Assembly: GCA_020342235.1 (NCBI GenBank)
Contig: CP073216.1
Location: 1,364,001-1,428,000, forward strand
Length of the DNA stretch: 64,000 nucleotides
Source of the DNA: Saccharomycopsis phalli
Lineage: Eukaryota > Ascomycota > Saccharomycetes > Ascoideales > Saccharomycopsidaceae
Direction of reading: 5' to 3'
In this document: piece by piece, positions 17,951 to 44,017 of the stretch
How positions within the stretch are numbered: position 1 is the stretch's first letter
Layout: every line of letters begins with the position of its first letter
The notes under the pieces: generated by a model
What the model saw: only the letters and a program-made list of their open reading frames with translations
The model's database searches: none
What the model was told of the DNA's origin: nothing
Made by a program: the position numbers and the translations under genes

Positions 17951-18949
17951 TCATTTGCATTTGTCAGAACTGTTTGGGAAACAGTAATCCATGTCTTCCA
18001 ACGAGTTAATATTGGCTTCACATGCTTCATTATATTTTTGCTCTTTGCCCAGAGGCCTTCGGGGAACAAAAGAAAAGTCACCATCCATGATTGTACCAGA
18101 ACCTTCGAGGGTGTAGTGAACCATTACTGTATCAATCTTACAAAGACGCTTACCGTTTTTGCCTTCGGTGGCTCTTCCATAGAGTTGAGCATTCTCAAAG
18201 GCTTTCAAGCGATTCTTCAAGTCTTCCTTGGTGTAAACCCGGCCAATTTTAAGCGACTTTTTTAACTGAATGTTGTCATGAAGTACACCTTCAACAATAA
18301 ATAGATTTTTAGCGGCATTCATGTAGTCAATGGCCTGTTGTCTTTTGATCCCTTCATTTTGCCCTTCGGCAACTAATTTGTTGAATTTCTCCTTCTGGTT
18401 CGTGGTCATTGTTCTCCTTAATTCGAACAACTGCTTATACGTGTCATTGTCCTTCCATATGTTATCTGTGTTGTAACAATCCTTTTTCAATGATGTGAAA
18501 TCGCGAATATGGCGGATCGTCTCCTCCTCTGGAATCCTACTATAATCATTCCAAAATTTCTTGATCCAGTCAGCTTTCCATATTGATGATGTTTCCGTGA
18601 ACAATACCTTTAAGTTTAGAGTATGAAAAATATACTTAATTAAAGGATTGGTCTCGTATGGATACTTTCCTAATCCATGAATGAAGAGGCGTTCATTTTT
18701 AGGCACATATCCGTAAGTAAGAACCATGTCTTTGGTTTGCTCATTTTTACAATGCTCATAGCCATTCTCTTTCCGAGTGATTATTGGGGCATTTTGGCCA
18801 GTCATTTCCCCGGAATTAAGTAATTTGTCGATTTGCTCTCTTTGAGCGGCAAGAGCAGCATTGGTTGAGGCAGGATCGACTGGAGACGCAATGCCAAGCT
18901 CCATGAAGAGCAAGGCTAAAAGGACATGAAAGATGGACAATGTGTTCAT
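17951..18949 (-). CDS. Secreted RNase T2-like protein, paralog A (probable pseudoenzyme)
   Basis: A 332-residue protein with a signal peptide (about 1-22, cleavage near IAS-PV). Its paralog is at 37836-38831, and both begin MNTLSIF. Mature cysteines are 67, 158, 270, 310, 323 and 331; all six are conserved in the paralog. The order of motifs recalls secreted RNase T2. MVLTYGYVP then LFIHGLG (89-94) resembles the first active-site box (LVLxxQW..FTLHGLWP). IWKADWIKK (123-131) resembles the second box (FWxHEWxKHG) but lacks its histidines. RVYTKEDLKNRLKAF (237-251) and C270..VMVHYTLEGSG resemble the C-terminal sheet (YT..EM..AIE.., C..L.EV.YHFNVRG). I infer an RNase T2 fold with altered chemistry; function unknown. 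N168 and N326 are possible N-glycosylation sites. The fold call is by eye and tentative; the secreted-paralog call is firm. Confidence 0.6.
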   Translation of the reverse strand: MNTLSIFHVLLALLFMELGIASPVDPASTNAALAAQREQIDKLLNSGEMTGQNAPIITRKENGYEHCKNEQTKDMVLTYGYVPKNERLFIHGLGKYPYETNPLIKYIFHTLNLKVLFTETSSIWKADWIKKFWNDYSRIPEEETIRHIRDFTSLKKDCYNTDNIWKDNDTYKQLFELRRTMTTNQKEKFNKLVAEGQNEGIKRQQAIDYMNAAKNLFIVEGVLHDNIQLKKSLKIGRVYTKEDLKNRLKAFENAQLYGRATEGKNGKRLCKIDTVMVHYTLEGSGTIMDGDFSFVPRRPLGKEQKYNEACEANINSLEDMDYCFPNSSDKCK

Positions 18950-18974
18950 TGATGAATAAAGTGGGCGAGTAGGT

Positions 18975-19028
18975 TAAAGTGAGTGGATATGGTAAAGTGA
19001 GTGGATATGGTAAAGTGAGTGGATATGA
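18975..19028 (+). repeat. 18-bp tandem repeat in the promoter of secreted paralog A
   Basis: Three perfect copies of TAAAGTGAGTGGATATGG start 26 bp upstream of the ATG, so they lie within the likely leader or core promoter. TATTTATAG (19033-19041) just upstream could act as a TATA element. Confidence 0.85.
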
Positions 19029-19041
19029 TTCTATTTATAGT

Positions 19042-19418
19042 ATTCTAGAGATATACTTGAGATCTATGCCTTGTGGTATAATTGCTATCCATGCCTTGTG
19101 GTATACTTGATATTCATGCCCTGTGCCGTTACTGCAAGGCTGTCGGTTTCAAATTGCCGCGGCATCAAATGATTTGTGTCAAGTATCTTGGATGGATATT
19201 TCATATTTGTAAATAGACTGAATTGATTTAATTCTGACTATCATTGGCATGCAATCAGAAAATGGATATAGCCAAGCATTGTATCATGTGGTTTGATGGC
19301 TCAAGGCCAACATTACACCGAGGTGGACTGCATCATGGCTAATTGTTTTCTGACAACAGTACGGTGATATACGTTTCTACGCCGTCAAATGTCAAAGATA
19401 TAGGGTCAGGAGGTTCAC
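19042..19418. other. Intergenic, upstream of secreted paralog A
   Basis: Contains a short duplication around ATGCCTTGTGGTATA (19066-19106). No gene is seen. Confidence 0.5.
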
Positions 19419-19604
<186 letters not shown>

Positions 19605-19608
<4 letters not shown>

Positions 19609-19900
19609 TAAGGCTATAGCTATACTAGGCTCCCAGAGAAGATTTATACTTCGCCGTCTACGACTAAGGACGGTGCTGCTATATAGTCGTCGAAAGAAAA
19701 CTCTGCAACAGAGATGAAAAACTTTCGACCAGAGCATGTAAATATGTGAGGTAATGAGCATTGGAGGGGCAGTAAGTTTTCGCCTAAATCTTTAGAGATG
19801 ACTTTAACCACTCCCTCCCCAAGGTAGTAACTCGGTAGCCCTCCTAACGTGCTGTAACAAAAAAAGGGAAAACTACCGGTCCAGCACCGACGAGTAGAAT
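19605..19900 (+). mobile_element. Miniature inverted-repeat element, A end
   Basis: Starts AAGGCTATAGCTATACTAGG directly beside TAA/TTA repeats and continues GAAGATTTATACTTCGCCGTCTACGA. The same order is found at 53621-53720, inverted at 53985-54075, and more diverged at 42210-42420. No protein is encoded. I read it as one end of a non-autonomous DNA transposon (MITE-like); the right boundary is uncertain. Confidence 0.6.
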
Positions 19901-20029
19901 CCTATAAGAGTTTTAAGCTTTGCCTTATCTGAGAAAAGGACGCGAGCTTGAGTAGCATTGGTAATTCCTTCAGGTATCTGTGCCTGGGCTCGAGAGCCGG
20001 TTCACTAAGTCAGGAGCAAAATTTTATAA

Positions 20030-20210
20030 TAATAATAATAATAATAATATTTATTTTTGTATTTAGCTATATATTTTCTCCGGCAATACGGTTATTCGAC
20101 AGATATATTTTCACTCAGGAGCATCAGGCACCATTGCTATTGCTGAAAACCCACAACTTTCAAATAGTTGCCTGGGATTAAAAACTTCAATGGGGGCAGA
20201 AAATTTTATA
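20030..20210 (+). mobile_element. Miniature inverted-repeat element, B end
   Basis: A (TAA)n run, then ATTTATTTTTGTATTTAGC, CTCCGGCAATACGGTTATTCGACAGATATATTTTCACTCAGGA, ending near CTTCAATGGGGGCAG. Closely similar copies lie at 44075-44250 and 41885-42045, with an inverted copy at 42525-42650. This is the opposite terminus of the same miniature element family. Confidence 0.65.
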
Positions 20211-21204
20211 TATTATACATATGGCGAGCCTCAACATCAGCATTCCCTACCAACGACTATTTAAAGACGTCTCCTCATCAATAAGAGTGGAATGGTTAAT
20301 TCAAGATCAGACTGAACCAGATACTGGCACGCTACGCCAAGGCTCAATTCAAGCGACTACTAAACAGTCAAAATTACTCTCAGAAGCCCTAGTTGGACCT
20401 AAGCGAACACTCGGCAAGATCAGATATTAAGCGGCCAAAGCTTAGTTTCACATTAAACAATGACTTTATTCAACGTAGAGGTTAGCCCATGAAATGGAGG
20501 ATTTTATGCCATTGACGTTCCACAATTTTACCTACCTAGCACGTTAGGAGGGATGGCACAAGTCACCAATGACCTAGGAAGACTTGCTTCCCCCCATTAC
20601 ATATGCACTAGGTATAGTCAAACGTTCTCTGCACCAGAGTGTCTTCCGACTAGATATTGTCATTTGTCGGCAAAGTATACATTTCTGGAGTCTATTATGC
20701 TATAGTCTTGGAAGATATTATGTATATATTATATATAATATTATGTGTATATTACGCTGTAAATTGTGAATTGTGCCGATGGTTTTTCAAAAGCACCATC
20801 AGCTAAAGAGGTGCTAAAATCGAGGTCCTCGGAAGTTTTCAATTGAAACTCATTTAGTTTGGTACAGCTGATTATTGACAAGCCATGTGTAGAGGACAGT
20901 CAATTGGGCTGGCTACGGTGTTGAGTTACCACAGTTATGGTTCGGGTGAGGTCTCACAATTGAGACATGCACTTGGGATGATTACAGATGGGATATATTG
21001 GAGTGGATACTACCAAATGTCATTTTTGAATTAAAGGAAAGCCTCTGGCGTGAATATGCCTCGCAGAAACAGATTGCACATTGGGCAACCAGAATTGAAT
21101 ATATATATCAAGATGCTTGACAAGTCTTGAGGCTAGTTCTAGAAGAACTTGCTAGTCTTTCTCCTTTCTCTGCACTCCTTCCTTTTCTTTTGTCTCCTCA
21201 CCAG
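20211..21204. other. Intergenic, no gene seen
   Basis: Unique sequence between the element fragments and the CHS4 3' minisatellite. Reading frames of up to 69 codons occur but none has recognisable features. Confidence 0.5.
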
Positions 21205-21375
21205 TTTTTCAGTTTTTCAGTTTTCCAGTTTTCCAGTCTACTTTTCCAGTCTATTTTTCCAGTCTACTTTTCCAGTCCACTTTTCCAGTCCACTTTTCCA
21301 GTCCACTTTTCCAGTCCACTTTTCCAGTCCACTTTTCCAGTCCACTTTTCCAGTCCACTTTTCCAGTCCACTTTC
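21205..21375 (+). repeat. 13-bp minisatellite at the CHS4 3' end
   Basis: About a dozen copies of TTTTCCAGTCCAC (early units TTTTCCAGTCTAT or TTTTTCAG), ending about 50 bp from the CHS4 stop codon. Long frames across it on the plus strand are repeat artefacts. Confidence 0.9.
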
Positions 21376-21426
21376 ACCTTCACCTTCACTTTCCAATCAG
21401 TCCCTCAATTTCGTCCCTCAATTTCG

Positions 21427-22722
21427 TCACACAATAACACAATCCTTCCCAGCCTCCTTCTCCGTCTCCACATTATTACCTATCTTCTGCTTGGCCCGCA
21501 TATCTCCGTTCCGCGCCGCCCGCTGGATCCACCGCTGCGCCGCCTCCTCATCCACCTCACAGCCAATTCCCTTCTCCAAAAAATGCGCCACTGCAAACTG
21601 GGCCTTGCCAAACTCCAAATTCGCCGCCCGCAACGCCCAGGCATACGCCTCGCCCTCGTTCTTGGGCAAAAACGGCTCCGCACCGACAAGGTACCAGGCA
21701 CACATGGCTAGCATGGCCTCTGGATTGTTGGCTAGTGCCGCCTGTGTGTAGTAGTGGATCGACAAGTTTGCGTCCTGGGGAATGATCTCGCCTGTTTCGT
21801 AAGCCTTGCCGAGAACAAGTGCCGACGGCACGTGTCCGAGCGACGCGGCTTGCACATACAACTCCAACGCATACTTGCGGTCGGAGATGAGGATATCCTT
21901 GAACCCCGAGTCGTAGATCCGGGCCAACTCGTAAGGAGCTGCGCAGATCAACTCGTTGGCCTTGGTCACGGCAATGGTCAACCACTTGATGCCGGCCTTT
22001 TTCGTGTTGTCGTCGGTGCCAAGTCCCATCCGCCCATAGAACGAGTACACCCCGAGCTTGTACATTGCCGCTGGGTGGTTTCTGGAGGCGGCCGACTTGA
22101 GGTACTTGATGGCCTTTTTCGCGTCCGGCTGGGTGCCAATGCCCTCCTCAAAGCAGTGTGCCGTCCGGTAGCACGACTCAATGTGGTTGTGTTTGGCCGC
22201 CGCCTGGAAGAGACTAAAGGCCTGTTTCTGGTCGACTTTGCCAAAACACCCCGAGGCATAGCCGTCGGCTAGCAAGTACTGGGCATCGACATAGCTCTTG
22301 TCGGCCAACTTCTTCAAGTAGTGCTGCGCCTCCTTCAAGAGCTCGCTGCGAAGCTCGCTCGGCTGGTCCATCATGAGCGCGGTCTGCAACACATACTGGG
22401 TGAACTGGAACAACACATATGGGTCGTGGCTCTTCTTGGCGTTTATCCGATACAAGTCAATCGCCTGCATCTTCGGAACAAGCCCGCCCTTGTTGTCGCC
22501 CAAGTACTGGCTCAACAACTCGTGCGAGTTTTGTGATCCCGGCTGGTAAAAGTTGAAGCTCTCAAACGTCTCCGCCGACTGATGCGCCTCCTGCTGGGTC
22601 TCCAACACAGTCTCGTTGGGGTGGATTGCGTTCGGGTATTCCGTCACGAGCCGCACCGTCGTCTGGTCATGTGGGATGTCGCTGAAGCTCGCATCTAGTA
22701 CGTTGGAAGACTGGGAAGACAT
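21427..22722 (-). CDS. SKT5: Chitin synthase activator, Sel1-repeat protein with CaaX tail
   Basis: A 431-residue protein from the ATG complementing 22720-22722. An open frame extends upstream but only through repeats. After a disordered N-terminus (about 1-85) come six to seven Sel1-like repeats (about 130-410), with motifs such as DAQYLLADGYASG, ESCYRTAHCFEEGIG, AAMYKLGVYSFYG, PSALVLGKAYETG and FAVAHFLEKGIG. The protein ends CVIV, a CaaX box like the CVIM of yeast Skt5/Chs4, so farnesylation or geranylgeranylation and membrane attachment are likely. In yeast it activates chitin synthase III (Chs3) and links it to Bni4 and septins at the bud neck. Yeast Skt5 is longer (about 696) because of its N-terminal region. 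Shc1 is a paralogous alternative name. Confidence 0.88.
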   Translation of the reverse strand: MSSQSSNVLDASFSDIPHDQTTVRLVTEYPNAIHPNETVLETQQEAHQSAETFESFNFYQPGSQNSHELLSQYLGDNKGGLVPKMQAIDLYRINAKKSHDPYVLFQFTQYVLQTALMMDQPSELRSELLKEAQHYLKKLADKSYVDAQYLLADGYASGCFGKVDQKQAFSLFQAAAKHNHIESCYRTAHCFEEGIGTQPDAKKAIKYLKSAASRNHPAAMYKLGVYSFYGRMGLGTDDNTKKAGIKWLTIAVTKANELICAAPYELARIYDSGFKDILISDRKYALELYVQAASLGHVPSALVLGKAYETGEIIPQDANLSIHYYTQAALANNPEAMLAMCAWYLVGAEPFLPKNEGEAYAWALRAANLEFGKAQFAVAHFLEKGIGCEVDEEAAQRWIQRAARNGDMRAKQKIGNNVETEKEAGKDCVIV

Positions 22723-22761
22723 TGGACGATTATTTGGTAAGGCGCTTTTTATGGTAGGTTT

Positions 22762-22767
22762 CACGTG
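22762..22767. promoter_or_regulatory. CACGTG box upstream of CHS4/SKT5
   Basis: A palindromic E-box (TTTCACGTGCGG context) 40 bp upstream of the ATG, the same distance as in HEM2 and the FAA2-like gene. Confidence 0.45.
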
Positions 22768-22869
22768 CGGTCGGGTAAGACCATGCAGCGTGGTATAACA
22801 TGAGGTCCGGTCAAGAGTCGGGTTACAATGGCAGGGATTGGATCTGCAAGGATTGGCAAAATTTGGAGG

Positions 22870-22925
22870 AGGTGAAAGAGGTGGGAGGAGGGGGAGGAGG
22901 AGGAGGGCCGGAGGAGGACCGGAGG
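22870..22925 (+). other. G-rich purine tract, possible G-quadruplex
   Basis: Consists of repeated GGAGG/GGGGGAGG blocks with more than four G runs in about 50 bp, inside the CHS4 upstream region. On the gene's own strand this is a C-rich pyrimidine tract. A quadruplex is inferred only from composition. Confidence 0.4.
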
Positions 22926-23034
22926 AGTTGGCGGGTTGACAAGGAAAACAAGGTGACAAGAAAAGGTAATGAGGCAAAGAAGAGTAGGTGAGGTAAGGAA
23001 AAGCAAAGGAAAGCAAAGGAAGGTAAAGGAAGGT

Positions 23035-23140
23035 AAAAGGGTAAATAAGTAAATTGGTAAATAGGTAAATAGGTAAATTGGTAAATTGATAAATAGGTAA
23101 ATTGGTAAATTGATAAATAGGTAAATTGGCAAATTGGTAA
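23035..23140 (+). repeat. 9-bp minisatellite upstream of CHS4
   Basis: Alternating GTAAATTG and GTAAATAG(G) units, about a dozen, with GATAAATAG variants, about 310 bp upstream of the CHS4 start. Confidence 0.9.
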
Positions 23141-24624
23141 AAGGAAGAAAAGAGATGATGAAATGATGAAATGATAAGATAAGAAACCAAGGAAAAAAAG
23201 AAACCAAGACCAAGGAATGAAAAAAGACTAGCCAGAATGGCGTCACTGGTAGAATCGTATTATAATTAAAATCACCAAATGGCTACATTTGATGATTCCA
23301 TTGCACTACACATTCAAGAATGCCAACTGCTGTAGTACCATGTGTGGAAGTAGCGTAGATCATGCTGGTATCTTTACGTGCAATAACACTACCCATTCAA
23401 GTATACTAGGTTGAAATACGTCAGTGTATCCAATGGTGAATTTTCTCTTGAGTGTGGTTTATACACCAAAAACGGCCAATGCCGTTTCCAAGTAGCAATT
23501 ACACTACTTCTACCTTACGCCTTACTTCCACTTCCAATCATTTCATCTACTTTTCAATCCTTTCATCTACTTTTCAATTCTTTTATATACTTTTCAATCG
23601 TTTTCACACTCTTCCATTGCAAGTTAATCGGTTCCTGAATGTCTTATTACCGATGCTGCAGCCTGTCACGCACATCAACATCAGGTGATACCATTGTAGT
23701 ACCTCAGACATCATACCTCCATTGATCTCCATTCCACTACGCTTGCCATTGTCTTGGAAATGCCTTTTAATTGTTTAAACCAGGATATTGACTAGCTGTA
23801 TTTAGTTGTAGCCCTCTAGCTCTATATATTGACTAGCTGTATAAAGTTGTAGCCAACCAGCTCTAGAGGTCGATGTCTTGTGTCCTAGATCAATGTGGCC
23901 ATGTTTCAGTCAATATTCCAAGTACTCTCTAGCCATAGTTTTGGCTACATTTCCTTGTATGATTGCTCAACATGGTTGATTTGAAATGAGTGAAAAAGGC
24001 CATGTGGATTTAATTTAATACAAATGGCAATGATACGGCGATGATATAGATGGTGCGGTAAAAAGCAGTAGTAGATGGTAGTGGGTAGAATAGTAAATGG
24101 TCATAGATATAAAGTAGGTAGCATAGTAATAGGAAGGTAGTAGATCGAGTATTAAGTACTAATGGATGATAGCAAATACTGGAAATACCAATACTAAATA
24201 ACAAACAGCAATACCATTACTAAATATCGGCAATACCAATACTAAATATCAAATGGAAATACCAATATTAAATATTAAAGTTGAAAATAATCAAATCACC
24301 TATAACAGAGAAGCTATTCTACGTTGGAATGTACTCACGCACGGCACAACATACAGCTGTAACGTAAAGTGAAACTCATGGCCATAGGAACTCACGAAGG
24401 ACATCTTTCCTATAAAGGGGATTATTTCCGTAGTTGAATGAGAAATGAACATTCAACTCAATCATCACTGCCATTCCGATTATTCAATTACAAAGGAACA
24501 AAACTCATCTATAATTAAGTATCTGAGCATAAGCTTGCAACGATGTCACACTAAAAAAATGGAAATACCAAATGAAAATGCCAATACCAAATAGCAAATG
24601 AAAATACCAAAACTATGCAAATCC
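23141..24624. other. Intergenic, no gene seen
   Basis: CHS4/CYK3 spacer. It holds an imperfect direct duplication of about 47 bp at 23785-23870 (ATATTGACTAGCTGTAT..AGTTGTAGCC) and a C/T-rich run of TTTTCAATC-like units at 23540-23605. No coding signal. Confidence 0.55.
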
Positions 24625-24700
24625 AAATTGCAATCACATTGCAATCACATTGCAATCACATTACAATCACATTGCAATCACATTGCAATCCACATACAAT
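24625..24700 (+). repeat. 11-bp minisatellite at the CYK3 3' end
   Basis: Copies of TGCAATCACAT with minor variants, about six units, 75 bp past the CYK3 stop codon. Confidence 0.85.
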
Positions 24701-24773
24701 CCACATGCAACCCACATACAACCAACCCATCTACAACATAAACAAACCATTAATACCATAAATTCAAAACTAT

Positions 24774-27700
24774 TCACTTACACACCCACTCAGCAAAAAC
24801 ACACCACGCCACACCGCCATCAGTCACCACCAAACCCTTCCACACACCCACCTCGTCACACGTCACTGCAACCTCCCAGCTTCCAAACGGCGTACTCAAG
24901 TCGGCCTTGCGGAGCTTGATAATCTTCCCCGTTGGACTCTGGAGCGCGAGCTTTGTGCGGATAAACCCCGACCCCGAGTTCAAGCCCGTGGACGGATGCT
25001 GCAGCACCTTGAAGATGTAGGTCCCGTCGATTGTAAGCAAGCGGATTTGCGGCTCCTTGACGTACAAGTCGTGAGACTGGCAGTGGACTGTTGGGAAGCG
25101 GGTGACAAACAGAAGGTCTTTGTATGAGCCCTTGTGGTAAATGGGGATCGAGAGGGCAAGCGGGTGGATGTTGGTGAGGCTCTTTTGCAGGCCCTTTTCG
25201 CCGCTGTAGATCTCCAAGATGCCCTTTTCGCCGTCCCTAGGCAAGAGGGCCTTGATGCGGGCGAACTTTGCATTGTTTTTCCAAAACACCTGGCAGAGGG
25301 TGAGGTCCTTGAAGCGGTCGTCACTGAGGGTCTTGTTTGGCGGCAATTCAATGTCGTCAGACTTGATAGAAGCAAACACCTCGACGTCCTGGGGAAGCTC
25401 AACCACGATCTCAAAGATCTCGGTGTCCTGGAGCCTGCTGAGGGCGTTGTTGAACTTGCGGATCTTGAGGCCGCTGGCGAAAAACTGCGGGTAGCAGCAG
25501 GGCAAAGCCAAGGCAATCATGGAATCCAACGGCGGAGAGATGTGCTGCTGCTCGATGAGCGTTGGGATGTGGGTGTGGATGATCTGGAGCGGCTTCAGAA
25601 GGAAGTAGAGCGAGTCTGCGCCGGTCAACATTGGGTGGAGCACCGAGTGCTTGTTAGCCAAGCAGCAGTCGATGAAGCGCCATTCGTGGTTGACCAACAC
25701 GCTGTTCCAGATGTGATTTGTGGTGAGCGTGAAGTTGTGGTCACCAGGCTTCTTCAAGTACCCAATTATGAGCTCATTTTCGATACCGAGACAGTCCATG
25801 AACAACTTGAAGAGCCAGGCTAGCTGGGTGGGAGTTGCCAGCTTCGACTGGAAGATCTGGTTCATGTGCTTCATCGGACTGTTTCTGATATCGATGATCT
25901 CGCTCGACTCGTGGAGGTGCATCTTCTCCAGACAGAAGACGTAGCATGCGCGAATGCGGTCGAGATCGTTGTCGTACTTGATGAGAATCTCGTTCTGGAT
26001 AAACGTCTTGGGCGAGATGTACGGGAGGTGCTTGGTCTTGCCAATGAACTCGTCAATCTGCCGGAAGTCCTTGTCAAAGTCTAGAGGCTGTGGTGCCGGT
26101 CCGGACTTGGATATCGGCACAATCTCATTGTCGTTGGCCTCGGTGAGCAACTTTTGCGGCTCCAAAATCAAGTACTTTTCCGTCTCAAGGGCCCGTTTCT
26201 GCCGCGCCTTGTAGTCCTTGGCCGTGATGGTCCGGCACCGGTTCAAATCGACCTTGGCTTCGATCCACGACGCCTCGGCGTCCGAGTTGTCGAAGCTCAA
26301 GTCGGAGAAGTTGTTGTTCTTGAGTGTGGCCACAGTGCTGCTGCCGAGGGGATTGCTCTTGGACGTTTCCTTGAGAAAGAGCTTCTTGAGGAACTTGGAC
26401 GTGGACTTTTTGCTCTTTTTCTCCTCCAAGAAGACCACATCCAACGGATTGCTGTCGGTGGGGATCACGTTGTTGAGTGGTTCTGGAGATGGCGGCGATA
26501 TGAGCTCCTTGGAAATGCGCCGGTAGTATTTGCTTTCCAGCGCAGACTTTTCTGGCTTCTCGGCCTCCATTTGGCAGTCCGTCTGGCTGCCCTTTTGACT
26601 CTCGTACGTCTGCTTGTGCCGATAATAACTCCCTGCCGACGTAGCACTCAAATCCGTAAGAGCAGTGCTCATTGACTGGACGCTCTCGTTACTATTAAAC
26701 TGGCTGTGGCTGTTTGTCACGCTCGACAAGTCGTCTGGCTGCTTAAAGTCCACACTCAGCTTCGACTGGTTCAACGTATCCGGGTCGTATGGCACCACAA
26801 ACGAGGTGTTGTTGGACACGCCGTAAAACGGCCGGAGGGGAACTCGATGTGGAGGCGGAGGCGGAGGCGAATCGCCGTTTTCAGCATCAGATCCAGACAC
26901 ATTTTCATCGGCCCGTGTCGGCACCACTGTCGATGAGTTGGAAAACTCACGGGTTCCAAACTCGTGCGAGGCAAATTTGGGCATGCTCATGCTGTGGTTC
27001 AACTTGTACATGTCGTTGATTCGGTCGACCAACAGGTTGAGATTGTGTGGGGTCGAGAGCGAGTGGGGAATCTGGCTCTGGAGCTGTTGGATCTGGCGAA
27101 GGTTCTGGATCTGCTGCTCGATTTCGTCGGGCGAGAGGTGAAGAGAAGCAGAGAGGTCGGACGAGCCAGACGAGCGGATTGAGTGTCTGTGGGAGATGCT
27201 ATTGATACTATTGATGGATTGGTTAATGCCATGGGTCGATTGATTAATGCCAATGGCCGATTGATTAATGCCAATGGCCGATTGATTAATGCCAATGGCC
27301 GATTGATTACCATTGACTGATTGATTACCATTGACTGATTGATTACCATTGACTGATTGATTAGTACCATTGAAGGATTGATTAGTACCATTGACGGATT
27401 GATTAGTACCATTAATGTGAAGTCCATTGACGGATTGATTAATTCCATGAATCCCATTAATACTACCACTGATATTTCCACTGACATTTCCACTGAAATT
27501 TCCACTAACATAACTTCCACCAAAATTGTTTCCACCAGTACTATTTCCACCAGCACAATCAACTCCCCCTTTGGATTGACTGCCCTTCAAAACTCCCTTG
27601 GAAACTCCCTTGCAATTACTCGAAACACTCCCACTCTGACTAACATGACCCACATTCACATAATTCATCGCACTCTTCTCACATTTACCCTCATCCTTCT

Positions 27701-30128: not shown

Positions 30129-33100
30129 ATGCCTCCTTGGATCCCCAATATTCAAAAAAGACTACTCAGATATATCCTCCAGCAGGTTTCTGTGTTCTCT
30201 GAGATTGATCTCAGCGATTTAGACGTCTCGTTGGGCCATCTTAACCTCAAAAATGTGCTCCTCAACCCAGAAACTTTCAAAGTCCCAGGCGTATTTCTTA
30301 GAAGCGGCCAGGTGGGAAATTTGGAGTTGAATTTGACAGTGAGCGACGGAATACAGATCACAGGGTCCAATATGGAGGCGATTCTCGTGCTCAAGCACAC
30401 AAACCAGCACGATTTCTCGTTGGAAAAGTCACGGGTCGACTTGGCCAGCAGCATCATGACACCAAAAGAGTTTGGTGACGAGATTTCCAGCGATGACGAT
30501 ACGTCGAGCAGCTCGGAGGACGACAAGCAGAACAACAACACATTCTACACTAACTATGTCAACAAGGCTGTGGAATTGGCTCTTAGCAAACTCCAGGTGA
30601 CAATCACAGACACCAGGCTAAAGCTCATTGTGGACGACAACCAGCCAGACATTATCATCACAATTGACGAATTATCGTGGAAATACTCGTCAGAAAACAA
30701 GAAAACCGTCGCCTTGAACGGAATACGAGTGGGAGGCGTGTTCACACTGTCTACACCACCCACGCAGGATGAGGAGTTTGATTCGGACGACGAGAATTAC
30801 AACCAAATGATGACTTCGTCCTATCTACCACAGGAGTCGTCCTCGATGTTTCAAAGCGCAAACTCACACATTTCACCCACCATGCTTCTTACTTTGCTGC
30901 GAATCAAACAGCCAGCCAACACAGAACGTCTGAAATTGATTGAATCAATCTGCGACGCCGCTACTGGAACTGGTACCTTACCACTCAGCCACGTGACCTC
31001 GCATGAGGTCGAGCCGATGGTTTTGAGCAATGGCAAGGAGGTTTTGCTTGCTGGTATTGATTGGATTGAGGTGAATTTTCAAGGGGTGTTGAAGTTTGAA
31101 GATCTCAACATCCAGATTGGCACCATCAGCTTGTCTCTAAGAAACCATCCAACCTGCTCGATTTTCGACCTCGTCTTGACGTTTTTAAAACAACTTGAAA
31201 AGGTAAAGAGCCTGGCTGCAAGTAACCGCAGAAGAACTAAAACTGGCATCCTTAAATTGTCACGTGCATCAGGTAACCACGTGACATTGGGCGGGGTGGA
31301 GGAGCGTGAATCTGACAATGTGACCTTCAAGTGGTTTTCTGAGATTTCAGTGGAAAATGTTTTAATCAGTACGAGTCTGTTTCTTGATCGGACTGGTAAG
31401 TTTGACAACGAGTCTCTGTTGTTGCAGTTTAGCTGCATAAAAGTCAACAAAAAGCACCAGGGTATGATTTTTGGTGGAGTGAAATCCATCAAATCAGATG
31501 GGTTTTTCTCATTTACAAATGAAAAGTCTCTGTCGAATGACGATTTGCAGTTTCAGTATTCTCTAGAGGAAAACGGACTTACAATCTTGTGTTCAAAAGT
31601 CGCAGAAATTAACGTCTCGATTGACTTCATACAGACAATCTCCGGGCTATTCGACACTAAGGTCCGGCCTATTATTGAGATCATGCAAAAAATCGATAGC
31701 TCAAGCCATGTTGAGCCAGGGTCCTTGGCTTCTTCGTTGGTTTTTCTGGGAAGAGGAACGCGCAGTAGCTTTCATCACAAGACAAGGGGATCAATTATTA
31801 CCCAAACCAACACAATCCGTGTTTGTGTGCCTGAAATCGGCCTTTTTCTTCTGATTTCGCCAATCTCCTATTCTGAAAACTGTCTAGATTGCCCCAAGGT
31901 GGATATATACTTCCAAGCCGATAACGAGAAACTGCTAATTTGCAGTCTTGTGGAGTTGCAATTTGTCCAGTACCAAAAAGCTCTTCCTATCAAGACTTTT
32001 GATCTTAATAGCAAGGAGGTTGTGTACTCCAGTAGTCTGAAAGCTCTGGTGAAAAGTATAAACTTTCACGCAAATTACCTCGATATATTACTGCTTGTTG
32101 ACAAAGTGCAGCAAATTTTACCGGATTCAGCGGGCAAAACTGTAAAGGAACGTCGTGTAAGAATTGCCAATGATATCATATTGTTTATTGATATTGGCGA
32201 AGTCAATGCCTCAATAGACGCATTCATCAACCCGGAGTTTGGTATTCTCAAAGGTCAATTAGCAGGAGTCACATTGTGTTTGTTTGACTCTGAATTTCAA
32301 ATTGTGGTTTCAAAATTATGGCTCTTTCGCTTGGAAGATCAGTCCGTGACTCACTTGATTGACGAGTGTCTAAATGACGGAAGGAATGTATCTGGAATTG
32401 AGCAAGTGCTTGGAATTTCCAATCCTCAAGATAACTTACTACCTTTGGCTGCAATTAAATTGGGCTCTTCTGGTGGAAGAGGTTTTTTGAGAAACGTCAA
32501 GGTAGAATATTATGGTGAATGGCTAGCAAAGTTACAAGTTGATAGCACTTCTTCTCCTCTTTCCCCCCCTTCCATCTCTTCCCCGTCACATACTTCCCCA
32601 TCAGACTCCATCTTGTCAATTAAATTTCGGTTGGTGGATTGTGTCATTGGCTTGAATCCCAGCAGATTACACTGTAAATCTTTGCTTCTTATTGACAAGG
32701 GCGACACTGAACTTCTAAAGACCCAGAATGAACTTGTTGCCAAGTTCCAACTTCGAAATGTGAGTCTATTCTTGGTTGACGATGTAAAGAATATTTTAGG
32801 GTACCAGGAGATCAAAAAGAAGCGACAATGGACAAATTTGAACAAGGTTATTCCTTCATGGCTGCAAGTCTCATGGTATTTGAGCAGCGGATTCATCAAT
32901 GTGGTGAATATCAACTGTTTGAACCTGCAGATTGTCAAGAATGACGAAGTGAAGTTGCAGGAAAATATAAGATTGCTGAATAGCGTACTAGACATAAAGA
33001 GTGACGTCGACTTATTAAAGGTTGAATTATGTGCTGATAGTTGCCAGACGTTGACCCAGTTGTTTAATGATTTGAAACGGCCTATTGTGCTAAGCAACAA

Positions 33101-35627
33101 GGAGAAGTACAAGGTGGAAAATCAACAGGATTTGGATGTATTTGGCGATGTTGATATTGACATGTTCCATAGTGGGAAGTCTCCTGATACAGATGGAAGT
33201 ACCAAAGAACTACTGGATACCAACGGAGGGAGGCATTTTGCAAATGGTGGTTCCACTGTGACTGTTAATCATGGGAAGGAAAATGCCATTGAAAGCAATT
33301 TGGGCCATGACTCTGTTGAGAATGATTCTCTGCAGTTTGGCTCCATGCAAATTGGTTCCGTTGATATTGGCTCTATGGAGATTGGTTCTATAGTAATTGG
33401 TTCAATGGAAATTGATTCCTTTGGCAAGAATTCTGTCAAGGACAATTCTCTTGAAAAGTCAATTGAAAACAGTGCTATTGAAAAACCAATTGAAAGCAGT
33501 ACTATTGAAAAATCAATTGAAAGCAATTCTATTCAACAAGACTCTGTTGACAGCCCCATTGAAAATTCCAACGGTAATATTCCTTCCACGTCAAATTTGC
33601 CTCTTGGAGAATCGATCAATATTGTCGATGACTACTATAACTCAAATATCGAGTCAGATTCTGGAAGTGGTATTGGAAGCAGTATCAGCAAGCACGAAGA
33701 GGAACATGCATCTGTTTTGACGTTTGAAGAAAGCCACTTTAACCAGGACTTGAATGACGACAAGACTATTCTTCCTGTTAAGGTTTATACGTCAATCAGT
33801 CGGTGTCAGATTTATTTGCACGACGGGTTTGATTGGAAAGACACGCGAGTTGCGATCCGAAGAGCGGTTCAGGAAGTAGAAGAAACTGGATATGCGTGGC
33901 AGAAGGAAGAGCAGAAAAAGGAGCAGAAAAAGGAGCCGCCGCAAGTAAAGAGACGAGACAGTTTGGGGGATTTTGGGTTCAAGAGCTTTGAAGAAGAAGA
34001 GGAAGTTCAGGTGATAAACCAGGAGATCTTTGATTCGATATACATCAACCTACCGTATGGAAGCGATCCGCAGAATCTCATTACAGGGATCAACAAGATG
34101 ATAAACGATGACGATGACGAGGAAAGAGAGCCTTCTATATTGAAAGACAAGAAGATCAACTACAAGAAGCTAAAGTTGCGAAGATCAAAAAAGCACAAGG
34201 TGCTTGTGAACTTGAAGGAAGTAGAGTTGGATGTCAGTGTTTTCAACACCGACGAGCCTGAATATGACGCGTTGGTGGATGAAAATGAGGATAGTGATGA
34301 CTCCAGCACGTTGATGAAACTATTGGTGAAGGTCCAGGACTTTGAGATCATTGACAACGTTCCGACATCGACATGGAACAAGTTTGTCACGTACCTTCGG
34401 GAGTCTGGAGAGAGAGAAGTTGGGGTTGATATGCTTAATTTCAGCGCAACGATTGTCCGTCCAAATAAGCGGCTAGCATCACAGGATGTGATGCTCAAGG
34501 TGAAGGTGCTTCCATTGAAGTTACACGTGGACCAGGATACGTTGGAGTTTCTTGTGCGATTTGGCGGGTTCAAGGATCTGCGTTTTTTGTTTGACAAGAT
34601 TTACGACGAGATCTTGTACATTAGTCGATTTGAAGTGAACAGTGTGCGGCTCAAGCTCGACTACAAGCCAAAGAAAGTGGATTATGTGGGGATCAAGAGC
34701 GGAAACAGCTCGGAGTTGATGAATTTTTTCATTCTAGACGGCGCTGAAATTGTGTTAAAGCTGGTTATCTTGTACGGTGTCAGTGGCTTGGATAGGTTGA
34801 ATTATCTCTTGAACTCCTTATGGATGCCTGACATTCGCACCACGCAGTTGAAGGGAATAATCAGCGGGCTTGCTCCAAGTGTGAGCAAGTTGAGTGGAGG
34901 AATCAAGGACTTGGTCATTATCCCCGTGAACGAATACAAGAAAGATGGACGGTTGATCAACAGTATCCAGAAAGGAGCATATGCGTTTGTGCGGACCACG
35001 ACCAACGAGTTGTTGAAGTTTGGAGTGAAATTGGCGGCAGGCACACAAGCGATTTTGGAAAACACCGAGGAGGCTCTTGGAGGAGAAGGTAGCATGGGGA
35101 GAGAGCCGAGAGTGGAGAAGAAAAAGGAGCCGAAACGGGGGTTGGATGTGGGCGAAAGTATGATTATTGGTGGATATGAGGTGGAGAACATTGGGGAGGA
35201 GCGGAGTATTTATGGAAGAAGAAAAGCCCGGAGTGGTGGAGGGAGGTATTATAGTGAGGCATACAGTGATTCAGATGAGGATGAGTTGGAGATTATTTCA
35301 GATACCGAGGAGGAAGACGTTGACCGGCGAGTGGTGAGTTTGTACTCAAGACAGCCGGAGAACGCTGCACAAGGCATCAGTTTGGCATACAGCAGTTTTG
35401 GAAGGAATCTTGGATTGGCGAAAAACGTCTTGGTCAAGGCAGGAAACAATGTGGCGGAAAGTGGCAGTGCGCGAAAAGCAGGATACGTTATTGCAAAAGC
35501 GACGCCAATTGCGATTATTCGGCCGATGATAGGAGCCACAGAGGCGATTTCCAAGACGTTGTTGGGAGTTACTAACCAGATTGATCCGAAGCAGATGCAA
35601 GATGCCAAGGAGAAGTATAAGAATTAG
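30129..35627 (+). CDS. ATG2: Autophagy lipid-transfer protein Atg2
   Basis: An 1832-residue protein from the ATG at 30129. The open frame extends 20 codons further up, but only to a TTG, and the protein starting MPPWIPNIQKRLLRYILQQ aligns with yeast Atg2 (MAFWLPQNIQKRLLLYVLQQ). The N-terminus is the chorein-type domain that takes up lipid. The long middle forms the bridge-like beta groove. The C-terminal region has the Atg2 C-terminal signature with NSIQKGAYAFVRTTTNELLKFGVKLAAGTQ (about 1616-1645). Atg2 works with Atg9 and Atg18 and moves phospholipid from ER to the growing phagophore. It is longer than yeast Atg2 (1592), partly because of a low-complexity insert of IGSM/IEKSIES units encoded at 33330-33590. 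No intron or break is seen. Confidence 0.93.
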   Translation: MPPWIPNIQKRLLRYILQQVSVFSEIDLSDLDVSLGHLNLKNVLLNPETFKVPGVFLRSGQVGNLELNLTVSDGIQITGSNMEAILVLKHTNQHDFSLEKSRVDLASSIMTPKEFGDEISSDDDTSSSSEDDKQNNNTFYTNYVNKAVELALSKLQVTITDTRLKLIVDDNQPDIIITIDELSWKYSSENKKTVALNGIRVGGVFTLSTPPTQDEEFDSDDENYNQMMTSSYLPQESSSMFQSANSHISPTMLLTLLRIKQPANTERLKLIESICDAATGTGTLPLSHVTSHEVEPMVLSNGKEVLLAGIDWIEVNFQGVLKFEDLNIQIGTISLSLRNHPTCSIFDLVLTFLKQLEKVKSLAASNRRRTKTGILKLSRASGNHVTLGGVEERESDNVTFKWFSEISVENVLISTSLFLDRTGKFDNESLLLQFSCIKVNKKHQGMIFGGVKSIKSDGFFSFTNEKSLSNDDLQFQYSLEENGLTILCSKVAEINVSIDFIQTISGLFDTKVRPIIEIMQKIDSSSHVEPGSLASSLVFLGRGTRSSFHHKTRGSIITQTNTIRVCVPEIGLFLLISPISYSENCLDCPKVDIYFQADNEKLLICSLVELQFVQYQKALPIKTFDLNSKEVVYSSSLKALVKSINFHANYLDILLLVDKVQQILPDSAGKTVKERRVRIANDIILFIDIGEVNASIDAFINPEFGILKGQLAGVTLCLFDSEFQIVVSKLWLFRLEDQSVTHLIDECLNDGRNVSGIEQVLGISNPQDNLLPLAAIKLGSSGGRGFLRNVKVEYYGEWLAKLQVDSTSSPLSPPSISSPSHTSPSDSILSIKFRLVDCVIGLNPSRLHCKSLLLIDKGDTELLKTQNELVAKFQLRNVSLFLVDDVKNILGYQEIKKKRQWTNLNKVIPSWLQVSWYLSSGFINVVNINCLNLQIVKNDEVKLQENIRLLNSVLDIKSDVDLLKVELCADSCQTLTQLFNDLKRPIVLSNKEKYKVENQQDLDVFGDVDIDMFHSGKSPDTDGSTKELLDTNGGRHFANGGSTVTVNHGKENAIESNLGHDSVENDSLQFGSMQIGSVDIGSMEIGSIVIGSMEIDSFGKNSVKDNSLEKSIENSAIEKPIESSTIEKSIESNSIQQDSVDSPIENSNGNIPSTSNLPLGESINIVDDYYNSNIESDSGSGIGSSISKHEEEHASVLTFEESHFNQDLNDDKTILPVKVYTSISRCQIYLHDGFDWKDTRVAIRRAVQEVEETGYAWQKEEQKKEQKKEPPQVKRRDSLGDFGFKSFEEEEEVQVINQEIFDSIYINLPYGSDPQNLITGINKMINDDDDEEREPSILKDKKINYKKLKLRRSKKHKVLVNLKEVELDVSVFNTDEPEYDALVDENEDSDDSSTLMKLLVKVQDFEIIDNVPTSTWNKFVTYLRESGEREVGVDMLNFSATIVRPNKRLASQDVMLKVKVLPLKLHVDQDTLEFLVRFGGFKDLRFLFDKIYDEILYISRFEVNSVRLKLDYKPKKVDYVGIKSGNSSELMNFFILDGAEIVLKLVILYGVSGLDRLNYLLNSLWMPDIRTTQLKGIISGLAPSVSKLSGGIKDLVIIPVNEYKKDGRLINSIQKGAYAFVRTTTNELLKFGVKLAAGTQAILENTEEALGGEGSMGREPRVEKKKEPKRGLDVGESMIIGGYEVENIGEERSIYGRRKARSGGGRYYSEAYSDSDEDELEIISDTEEEDVDRRVVSLYSRQPENAAQGISLAYSSFGRNLGLAKNVLVKAGNNVAESGSARKAGYVIAKATPIAIIRPMIGATEAISKTLLGVTNQIDPKQMQDAKEKYKN
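33330..33590 (+). repeat. In-frame coding repeat inside ATG2
   Basis: Imperfect short units encode a run of SM-IGS, SIEN and IEKPIESS peptides. The segment is acidic, Ser/Ile-rich and probably a disordered loop within the Atg2 middle region. Frame is preserved across it. Confidence 0.75.
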
Positions 35628-36104
35628 TGGATGGAGGAAGTTGGTATGGAGGAAGTTGGTGGATGAGTAATGGTGAATGAAAAATGGTGAATGAGAAATA
35701 TGCTGTGGAAAGTAAAGTGTTGATAAAGGAATTGATAAACGGCAGAGTTGGGTGGCTTATGGCAGGAATGGTTAGGAATATGTTAGGCTTTAGAAAATTT
35801 ATGAAGACCATATGGCAGTGATATTTCACATAATTTTAATGTTAATGCAAATAATAGTTTGGCCAAGTGTAGACTATTTTCATGATTCAAATTTCCCTTG
35901 GAAAATATTTATTCGCCTTGGACTGACTGTATCATCAAACAGATGAGTTCAATGGCATCACATGTTTACAACTTTGCTGGTTTCTTCTACATTGTAGCTC
36001 ATTTTCCGTAGCTTTCTCTCTCTGATGGATGTAATTGAGTCGAAGCGTATATAGTCAAACAGGCATTTAATATGATTTGATTGGTAATTTCTAGTTTATG
36101 GTAA
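35628..36104. other. Intergenic, no gene seen
   Basis: ATG2/POP6 spacer. The first 80 bp carry GGAGGAAGTTGGT and GGTGAATGA duplications. Otherwise unique AT-rich DNA. Confidence 0.55.
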
Positions 36105-36300
36105 TTTCTATTTATTGGCTATTCTATTTATTAGCTATTCTATTTATTGGCTATTCTATTTATTGGCTATTCTATTTATTGGCTATTCTATTTATTGGCT
36201 ATTCTATTTATTGGCTATTCTATTTATTGGCTATTCTATTTATTGGCTATTCTATTTATTGGCTATTCTATTTATTGGCTATTCTATTTATTGGCTATTT
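36105..36300 (+). repeat. 16-bp minisatellite upstream of POP6
   Basis: About 12 nearly perfect copies of GGCTATTCTATTTATT, ending about 105 bp before the POP6 ATG. The 16-bp unit opens repeating frames of FIGYSIYWLFYLLAI, which are artefacts. Confidence 0.95.
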
Positions 36301-36405
36301 TTGCTTAATTGGTTATTTCTATTAATTGATTACTTTCTTGATTTTTGCCTTGGTTTCTGCCATGTTGGTAAGCATAATTGTCCTGCAGAAAAAATCTTTT
36401 AGTCC

Positions 36406-36846
36406 ATGTCGGAACAAATCCAAGAGACCATTTCCTTTGTCAAAAAGCACACCACAAGACCAATTGAATCATTTTCAATCACCAACCATAGTAATGTTGG
36501 CCAGATTACGTTTCAGAGCATAAAATATCTAAACCAAGATAAGGCGATTGTGTTCTCTAGTATTGGCTTGGACACCCAGAAGTTGATTAGTGTGATTGAG
36601 ATTCTTAAACAAAAAGTGGCTAAAAAAGAAACGGTAGCTGACAAATCTGGCGAGAAACAGGTGGCATTGGACTACTCGATTATTCAGTATAATAAATTGA
36701 GTTATAGAAAGAAGGAATTGGAGGTTGAGTCGATGTTTGACGTGAAGAAAGTCCAATTGGAGCCAATTATGTATGTATTGATTCAGCAAACGGAAGAGGA
36801 TAATTTAAAGTTGATTAACGAGGGTTGGACTATTCAGAAAATGTGA
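36406..36846 (+). CDS. POP6: RNase P/MRP subunit Pop6 (Alba-type)
   Basis: A 146-residue protein (yeast Pop6 has 158). An Alba/Rpp25-like core includes AIVFSSIGLDTQKLISVIEILKQK (about 47-70), corresponding to VCIFSYGPHIQKMLSILEIFKK in yeast. IIQYNKLSYRKKELEVESMFDVKKVQLEPIMYVLIQ then matches yeast YQWNKLTSFDIKREGRNELQEERLKVPILVTLV. Pop6 pairs with Pop7 and binds the P3 arm of RNase P and RNase MRP RNA, and is shared with yeast telomerase RNP. The match was made from memory, so the symbol is likely rather than certain. A 16-bp minisatellite lies directly upstream. Confidence 0.75.
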   Translation: MSEQIQETISFVKKHTTRPIESFSITNHSNVGQITFQSIKYLNQDKAIVFSSIGLDTQKLISVIEILKQKVAKKETVADKSGEKQVALDYSIIQYNKLSYRKKELEVESMFDVKKVQLEPIMYVLIQQTEEDNLKLINEGWTIQKM

Positions 36847-37835
36847 ATTAGGAGATGATTATCAGAAATGACCATCAGACGAAATATGTATTGGCCATCA
36901 GATATGTACTTGCACAAATGAATATCCATTTGGAAATTCAAACAGATCTACGTCACTAAAGGTCAATGGCATGACTTAACCTGAGTCAATGCCAACAAGG
37001 TTAACCAGAACTTATCTGAACATGTATTGAACATTTTACAGCCATTTACAGAAATATCAGAATGCTGGCTAATTCACAAGTTAAGTTTAAAAGACAAGTG
37101 CTTCTACAAGCAAACCAGTTGCTGACATTGATTCCAGTACACAGGCCCATTTCTAAAAAGCATTGAGTCAATTTTGATGATAATAGTTTCTAAAAGCCTT
37201 GAGAGATGAAAACAGCCACTATGAGGCTGTGCATTATATGGACAAAGATCTAGTCTAGCTTCTATATCTATTAAACTGTTTCCAGGCAAATAAAGTGTTA
37301 CCGAGCCCACTTTATTCATTTGCTGATGACACAGCGTATATAGGCAATTACATTGCCAATGGTATGAGTTGTATTTCAAGGAATTTGGCGTACATTGGTG
37401 AAATGTACTTATCCTATCAGAGCTGTCGGTCTTATAGCCACGATTGATGTTGTGGTTATACCCGGATGGAGATGTATTACCCTGCCCATGATGCTATATA
37501 GATAGGATTCACAGCCTCCTGACTATCTAGTTTAGAATTTTATATACAAAATGTATATTATGGTATCGATTAGAACCTTGTACTATGGTTATAGTAGCTA
37601 CTGATGGTTCTGTGCTCCGCACCTATTGTTTATTTAATATTGGAGGCCGTGTTTAAGTATGAACATTTTCCTTATGATTGGTCACAGGTTCTTTGTTAGT
37701 ACATCATGGCGTGACAACTTCTCATAATACAGGTTCAAGTTTGGGATTACAAATAAGTACTCAAAACATCCATTTTAGATGTACTCTTCTTATTATATAT
37801 TCTTAACCTCTTTAGACCAGCTAATTTGATTATTC
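36847..37835. other. Intergenic, no gene seen
   Basis: Convergent spacer between POP6 and secreted paralog B. A stretch around 37380-37600 with TATATAGATAGGATTC and TATATACAAAATGTATATTATGG could be an old element promoter, but no second copy was found in the window. Confidence 0.45.
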
Positions 37836-38831
37836 TTATTGACATCCATTCGGTCCTGGCAAACAGAACATCATGTCCTCAGACTTTAGAGAGTTTGAAG
37901 CACATGCGTTACCAGTTGGTTGACCCTCAGTAATTGCACGTGGCTTGAGAGTAAGGTCATCATTCAGAATGATTCCTGTGCCACACACCGAATAGAAAGT
38001 CTTGACTCTATCAATGATACAAACTGACTTTCCGTTTTTGTCAATGACTTTTCCAGTGAGAAGAGCGTTTGGAAATTTCTGCAACTCTTGATTGAATTCC
38101 GCATTAGTATACGATTTTCCAGCTTCAAATATATTCATAAGCCTGGTAGAATCGATAAAAATACCATTTAGATCGGTTGTCAAGTTTTCAACGGCCACAA
38201 GATAATTTCTGATGACGCTTCTCAGAGTGGACCTCAGCTTCGTCTCCTCCTTCAACTTTTCGAATAGCTCCAGTTGATGTCTATCAAGCCTATTCTGATC
38301 TCTTAATAATTCCAACTTCTTATAAGTATTACTATTCGTCCAACGGGCCATTGGAAATGTGTAACAGTCTCTTCCCAATGATGAAAATTCACCAACATGG
38401 TTTGAAATCTCATTCTGTACTAAGGACATATCCTTCACCCAATATTCTTTCATCCATTTCGATGTCAAAATACTAACAGGTTCTGGACGTTTGAATATAG
38501 CTTTGACGTCCAGAGAATATTCGTAACTGTCAGTCTTCCATGAGCTTCCTCGTATGTTAGGATCTTTCAAAAGCGCACGAATTAAGAGCTTTTTGTCACT
38601 TTTCAGGTAGTCGTAGTCGAGAATCACGTTTCTGACGACTTCATTATCACAGCCTTCTGCCGCATCATTGTCTCTATCCAGAAAGTTTATACTGCTATTC
38701 AGCTCTTTAAAGTATTTAAGCAATTTATTGGCATCAATATTCTGACTGTTGTCGGATGAGACCGGCTTTGCAAGACCAAACTCCAAGTAGAGTAAGGCAA
38801 TGAGAACGTTAAAAATGGATAAAGTGTTCAT
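37836..38831 (-). CDS. Secreted RNase T2-like protein, paralog B (probable pseudoenzyme)
   Basis: A 331-residue protein with signal peptide MNTLSIFNVLIALLYLEFGLAKP. It is clearly paralogous to 17951-18949: the same six cysteines (61, 156, 271, 310, 323, 330) plus Cys283, the shared EFSSLGRDCYT block (A has DFTSLKKDCYN), KSYTNAEFNQELQKF (A has RVYTKEDLKNRLKAF), and a C-terminal DM-FC..GC. The RNase T2-like boxes are even more altered than in A: the HGL stretch reads IRALLKDP (84-91) and the second box reads SKWMKEYW (124-131). If the fold is RNase T2, this copy should be inactive as a nuclease. Possible N-glycosylation sites are N45 and N216. An 18-bp minisatellite starts about 155 bp upstream, as also seen closer in for paralog A but with a different unit. 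Confidence 0.6.
   Translation of the reverse strand: MNTLSIFNVLIALLYLEFGLAKPVSSDNSQNIDANKLLKYFKELNSSINFLDRDNDAAEGCDNEVVRNVILDYDYLKSDKKLLIRALLKDPNIRGSSWKTDSYEYSLDVKAIFKRPEPVSILTSKWMKEYWVKDMSLVQNEISNHVGEFSSLGRDCYTFPMARWTNSNTYKKLELLRDQNRLDRHQLELFEKLKEETKLRSTLRSVIRNYLVAVENLTTDLNGIFIDSTRLMNIFEAGKSYTNAEFNQELQKFPNALLTGKVIDKNGKSVCIIDRVKTFYSVCGTGIILNDDLTLKPRAITEGQPTGNACASNSLKSEDMMFCLPGPNGCQ

Positions 38832-42958: not shown

Positions 42959-44017
<1,059 letters not shown>

Follow-up and report, generated by a model that had tools for sequence, protein, structure and literature searches.

We analyzed a 64,000-nucleotide stretch of contig CP073216.1 from the yeast Saccharomycopsis phalli (the window), which contains two genes, here called A and B, for secreted-looking proteins of 332 and 331 residues. 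The results lead us to conclude that A and B are members of a family, about 60 loci in size, whose products, judging from sequence profiles and structure models, almost certainly adopt the ribonuclease (RNase) T2 fold and descend from fungal RNase T2. As a family these proteins are probably non-catalytic for the most part, and the codon comparisons indicate that some of them have probably been under diversifying selection. That the proteins serve as secreted effectors against other cells is a tentative proposal made by analogy, and the explanation taken as a whole, a T2-derived, mostly non-catalytic and diversifying family of antagonistic secreted effectors, is put forward with the same reserve.

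The original prediction, made from the window sequence, had described A and B as a pair of intact paralogs with signal peptides and six common cysteines. Both genes are indeed single intact open reading frames (ORFs) on the minus strand, both proteins begin with a hydrophobic signal peptide recognizable by eye, and the two are 32% identical over their full length (E 2e-50), a similarity far beyond chance. They do not form a pair, however, since they are two of about 60 loci and the closest relatives of both lie elsewhere (A with L005 at 52% identity, B with L040 at 53%). A survey of the 14.1-Mb S. phalli genome (8 contigs) at E<=1 returned 69 matched stretches with A as the query and 65 with B. 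Split rows were merged by hand into 60 distinct loci, and the genome-search counts are lower bounds; 12, 7, 4, 3, 10, 19 and 5 loci lie on contigs C1 to C7, and no family locus was seen on C8 in the searches with A and B. Queries with two divergent members added no further loci to this set. The reading frame is intact and full-length at 49 loci, and the 11 that are broken or partial entered no alignment or tree (alignment A1 comprised 48 members, without L060, and alignment A3 comprised 30 of the 49). Despite a median pairwise identity of only 28% among intact members, all but L060 have a recognizable signal peptide, and the six cysteine columns are filled in at least 48 of the 49, four of them in every member. 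L061 lacks the last two cysteines, which suggests that these likely pair with each other. B has one cysteine beyond the shared six.

Membership in the RNase T2 family had been proposed from the order of short motifs, and both profile searches and predicted structures support it. The HGLWP-like and HExxKHG-like boxes align with the corresponding T2 motifs in the expected order. RNase T2 was the sole family found in profile searches, with no strong match to another secreted family, and the family profile matched RNase T2 in the PDB at E 0.004. Profile-profile comparison with RNase T2 reached 97.2% with a score of 86, and none of 40 permuted controls scored above 20.3; permuted and reversed controls failed in this comparison. 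Scored against a T2 model, the distant member L052 was the best in the family, at 24.2 bits versus 10.2 for the top shuffled protein. The predicted structures of A and L052 both matched RNase T2 and no other convincing fold, the matched structures including the S-RNases 1iqq and 1ioo. The family thus displays both the alpha+beta fold of T2 and relatedness to T2 profiles. Pfam scans of A and B, of the 48 members and of the 30 members gave chance-level matches only, with no competing family among them.

We also searched 5.8 billion proteins, including those of Saccharomycopsis crataegensis, by a method that requires shared 5-residue words. Neither the 48-member profile (scored on the 7,997 candidates with the most shared words) nor residues 55-341 of L052 (316 candidates) found anything at E<=0.01. 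Because shared words were required, fast-evolving orthologs could escape these searches. Either the family occurs in this lineage alone or it changes too quickly for word-based methods to find.

The catalytic positions His46, His104, Glu105, Lys108 and His109 are given in RNase Rh numbering. In profile alignments they correspond to positions 91, 142, 143, 146 and 147 of A, a register confirmed by L052, which still has IHGIW and HEAMKH. Their loss across the family is graded. Of the 49 members, 15 retain His46, one His104, 25 Glu105 and 37 His109, while the full set occurs once, in L052 (L052:131-1153), the member likeliest to be active from its sequence. His46, Glu105 and His109 occur together in nine members, A included. 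The His104 equivalent is therefore missing from 48 members and that of His46 from 34, in which it is mostly replaced by Arg, Lys or Gln. A further 22 members have His109 without His46 and 12 have neither; because every His46-keeper also keeps His109, catalytic loss looks nested. The expectation that the active-site histidines would be mostly absent holds for B, which keeps one of three (His109) and lacks His46, His104 and Lys108, and fails for A, which keeps two of three and the Glu, lacks His104 and has Arg for Lys108. The sister of A, L005, has Gln at the His46 position, so that the His46 of A may have been retained or regained.

In a well-supported clade of 14 members His46 and His109 are each present in 13, L061 being the exception that lacks both, and the two histidines are among the 36 best-kept of 309 columns. 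This clade may cleave RNA. Among the 35 members outside it, His46 is found in A and L060 only and His109 in 24. The term "decayed" RNase T2 therefore needs qualifying, the loss being a matter of degree. Additionally, the Cys of the HGTC motif is invariant in 25 T2 proteins (alignment A2), and the residues listed for the family at the aligned positions, near 148-150, include no Cys. L060 (L060:252-1472) is a 406-residue frame on a very long branch that lacks the family signal peptide and keeps equivalents of His46, Glu105, Lys108 and His109; we are unsure of its place in the family.

Selection was assessed by pairwise codon likelihood in 15 pairs, comprising 12 resolved sister pairs and three from unresolved forks (B/L040, L029/L030 and L012/L013). 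In simulations at omega (the nonsynonymous to synonymous rate ratio) of 1, the code gave p<0.05 in 2 of 60 runs. Omega of the mature part ranged from 0.39 to 2.64 and exceeded 1 at p<0.05 in four pairs: L044/L047 (2.64, p 9e-5), L049/L050 (2.50, p 3.5e-4), B/L040 (2.14, p 2.8e-4) and L009/L010 (1.65, p 0.015), the first three of which survive Bonferroni correction. The signal peptide had an omega of 0.24 over the 15 pairs (p 1.9e-10). Across 1176 pairwise comparisons its median identity was 57%, as opposed to 26% for the mature part, and it was the more similar of the two in 1139. Furthermore, no cysteine differed in 42 comparisons across seven close pairs. The mature part seems to combine firm constraint with episodes of diversifying selection, the clade of B included. 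Two earlier estimates were set aside: a hand-picked pool of seven close pairs (mature omega 1.45, p 1.7e-4) had excluded the low pair L012/L013, and three pairs selected for high values (omega 2.71) were dropped in favor of the 15-pair set.

Several features of the genome bear on the lifestyle of this yeast. Both CTG codons of HEM2 (window 42959-43975) fall on Ser positions of yeast HEM2. UBA1 has four CTG codons, at which yeast UBA1 carries Asn, Gln, Asn and Val. With two of six on Ser and none on Leu, CTG is most likely read as Ser, which alters one residue in A and eight in B; family proteins were translated with code 12 for the active-site counts and later analyses. ATP sulfurylase had no match in the genome search, and matches to the PAPS-reductase family were confined to one 305-residue frame, which by its length we take to be flavin adenine dinucleotide (FAD) synthetase. 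Aspartic protease gave 45 matched stretches at about 40 loci. The genome also has three ordinary RNase T2 genes, and for one of them the best named records are from S. crataegensis (61 and 60%), the next named genus is at 48% and the top record is at 70%. Predatory Saccharomycopsis are described as reading CTG as serine, having lost sulfate assimilation and carrying many aspartic proteases (PMC6508603, PMC13148404). G+C content averages about 42% in the window; 33.84% is the figure reported for S. schoenii.

We propose that these secreted-looking, cysteine-bonded proteins would be exported to act on the cells of prey or of rival fungi, where they would bind RNA, ribosomes or surface targets. 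In an arms race of this kind the T2 fold would remain a stable scaffold while its surface diversified. Most members, namely the 34 that lack the His46 equivalent, would act without cleaving RNA, and the 14-member clade may still do so. This proposal draws on export, copy number, diversification and the lifestyle suggested by the genome, where we count in its favor the missing ATP sulfurylase, the many aspartic protease loci, the Saccharomycopsis relatives and the traits shared with predatory Saccharomycopsis.

A number of observations weigh against it. PF00445 was not matched by A or B at E<=10, by 48 members at E<=1 or by 30 members at E<=10, with HMMER filters on, and Foldseek TM-scores were low (query-normalized maxima of 0.31 for A and 0.41 for L052). 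Pooled over the 15 pairs, omega of the mature part was 0.97, no different from 1; it was significantly below 1 in three pairs (L012/L013, L031/L038 and L039/L042), and that of the pair containing A was 0.73, again no different from 1. S. phalli is itself a presumed predator, and the motif TTTCAACATGCA was without clear enrichment upstream of 46 of the 49 members. The missing Pfam matches and low TM-scores would fit a family of other origin whose resemblance to T2 is convergent or spurious. This is scarcely credible in view of the IHGIW and HExxKH that L052 retains in register, its score relative to shuffled proteins, the failure of permuted and reversed controls, and the agreement of two structure models on T2. 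Similarly, a pooled omega near 1, the 11 broken or partial loci and the several copies that adjoin dispersed repeats are what one would expect if the family had spread by duplication near repeats and now drifted, weakly constrained and with hardly any current function. We regard such drift as improbable, given 49 intact frames at so low a median identity, the retained cysteines, the conserved signal peptides and the pairs with omega above 2.

Other explanations accept the T2 fold and differ in function. The proteins could be divergent, active RNases with a reduced catalytic set, used in nutrient scavenging or as RNA-cleaving toxins, as the 15 members with both main histidines, nine of them also with Glu105, and the conservation and joint loss of these residues in the 14-member clade would suggest. 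We consider this unlikely for the family, in which His104 is almost universally absent and His46 mostly replaced, and the genome already has three ordinary T2 genes. It is also quite unlikely that they act in self/non-self recognition, whether in mating, kin recognition or the sparing of kin, in the manner of plant S-RNases. Many diverged paralogs, some pairs at high omega and the S-RNases among the fold matches favor such a role; S-RNases are active enzymes, the copies here are dispersed over seven of eight contigs, and no link to mating genes was seen, although no search aimed at one was made. Finally, in a mixed arsenal of a predatory yeast, the 13 to 15 keepers of His46 and His109 would be RNA-cleaving toxins against fungi and the dead paralogs would be diversified binders (decoys, antidotes or kin tags) that shield the producer, with recombination homogenizing promoter and signal peptide while the mature coding body stays diverse. 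This joint claim is quite improbable; if true, the family would be the equivalent, on a T2 fold and in a budding yeast, of S-RNases and of the RALPH effectors of powdery mildew alike.

Among known systems, fungal RNase T2 (RNase Rh, 1bol; Actibind, 3tbj/3d3z; PF00445) shares with the family the core fold, the order of conserved active-site segments (CAS) I and II, secretion and the C-terminal Cys pair of the core. In contrast to these enzymes, the family has mostly incomplete catalytic sets, has lost the HGTC Cys, gives no Pfam match for single members, and has an N-terminal helical extension, an insert of about 40 residues, an extra C-terminal Cys pair and about 60 loci. Plant S-RNases are active enzymes encoded at one polymorphic locus; they resemble the family in fold (1iqq and 1ioo) and diversification, whereas the family occupies many dispersed loci with mostly incomplete active sites. 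FoRnt2, FocRnt2 and VmRnt2 are reportedly secreted fungal T2 virulence RNases described as effectors. They differ in being reported as individual T2 proteins and not as a large family with decayed sites.

RALPH effectors have a smaller RNase fold of the T1/N1 class, which the family, with its T2 matches, does not share. The parallel originally drawn with RNase-fold pseudoenzyme effectors of plant-pathogenic fungi therefore stands for secretion (by eye), high copy number (49 intact), an RNase fold and an incomplete active site, and falls short on fold class. One report proposes that RALPHs such as CSEP0064/BEC1054 are pseudoenzymes binding host ribosomes, and describes them as a large secreted RNase-fold family without catalytic residues near transposable elements (PMC6464244). 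Theirs is a plant pathogen, and here the T2 fold is found in a budding yeast. The family appears like RALPHs in logic without being one of them; this is the closest parallel, and the effector analogy is plausible. The expanded aspartic proteases of Saccharomycopsis likewise form a large family of secreted proteins in yeasts of this kind. They differ in being ordinary enzymes, some of which are reportedly induced in predation (PMC6508603, PMC13148404). Our literature search, which covered main texts in part and not supplements, returned no report of such a T2-fold family in Saccharomycopsis.

Catalytically dead, fast-evolving secreted RNase-fold effectors have so far been a matter mainly of plant pathogens, and accounts of how predatory yeasts attack have so far centered on proteases, chitinases and glucanases. 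The family, which is invisible to Pfam-based annotation, would provide candidates for how such yeasts attack or distinguish other yeasts. With active sites ranging from complete to dead within a single genome, it would allow a direct test of how an enzyme fold becomes an effector scaffold.

Table. Features of genes A and B (window coordinates)
Feature	Position	Strand	Remarks
Gene A, secreted-looking T2-fold family member, 332 residues	17951..18949	minus	intact single ORF
A signal peptide, residues 1-21	18887..18949	minus	by eye; kept across family
A CAS I-like strand ERLFIHGLGKYP, residues 86-97; His91 = T2 His46	18659..18694	minus	profile alignments
A CAS II-like segment, residues 128-159 (Glu143, His147, Cys158-Tyr159); His147 = T2 His109	18473..18568	minus	profile alignments
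A upstream 500 bp, seven GGCA/TGCC cores, same kind in A's clade	18950..19449	minus	
Gene B, secreted-looking T2-fold family member, 331 residues; clade omega about 2	37836..38831	minus	intact single ORF
B signal peptide, residues 1-21	38769..38831	minus	by eye; family conservation
B CAS I-like strand KKLLIRALLKDP, residues 80-91; Arg85 where T2 has His46	38559..38594	minus	family alignment
B CAS II-like segment, residues 126-157; His145 = T2 His109	38361..38456	minus	family alignment

A and B each stand alone among ordinary genes. A lies between a gene with a SpoU methylase domain and a Sel1-repeat gene, and B lies downstream of a small Alba-domain gene. Low-complexity frames near A and B (window 19339-19761 and 36098-36325), with Tyr/Ile/Leu runs and tandem IGYSIYWLFYLLAILF repeats, are probably simple repeats and not genes. 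Upstream of B, starting near window 38990, there is a short tandem repeat of AAAATAGCTTGATGATTC units at a distance of 150-260 bases.

Promoter motifs were tested in the upstreams of the same 46 members, with 13 genes only as controls. GGCA/TGCC cores averaged 5.98 per 500 bp, versus 3.31 in the controls and 1.84 in shuffles. The excess comes mostly from the clade of A, the 14-member clade being close to controls, and upstream of A's clade these cores recur together with runs such as CATGAGGCATGAATAATATCCAAGGCACAATGCC. A regulator common to these regions is possible. The motif TTTCAACATGCA is carried by predation genes of S. schoenii, according to one report (PMC11392346). Its mean best mismatch, relative to shuffles, was 3.11/3.29 in the clade of A (19 members), 3.14/3.32 in the 14-member clade, 2.33/3.27 in a 3-member clade, 3.50/3.30 in a 6-member clade and 3.62/3.38 in the 13 controls. 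In A's clade 11 of 19 upstreams contain a Ste12-like TGAAAC half site, as do 3 of 3 in B's clade and 4 of 14 in the large clade, compared with 3 of 13 controls and about 0.27 of shuffles, related promoters being non-independent.

On contig C7, where two regions were examined (L086, 943000-949500, and L084, 983000-988500), the copies L047 and L059 lie in opposite orientation behind a nearly identical block of at least 2.9 kb. Their upstream 1.5 kb is 95-100% identical in every 60-base bin, while coding bins from +60 fall to 48-90% and the final bin at the stop to 33%. The steep drop in identity thus comes just past the codons of the signal peptide, a pattern that ectopic recombination or gene conversion might leave. 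Over the nearest 0.9 kb upstream, L044 is 88-100% identical to both. The block consists mostly of a dispersed repeat (at least 10 other copies over 1.2 kb) and a promoter region of about 880 bp, the latter also present at L044. We had considered an invertible cassette for these copies; because the shared block is mostly a dispersed repeat, such a switch is unsupported. Dispersed repeat fragments also occur near L005, L006, L022, L024 and L062, and a frame with a reverse transcriptase domain (Pfam RVT_1, E 8.7e-21; L086:5810-6448) adjoins L059 on the side opposite the block.

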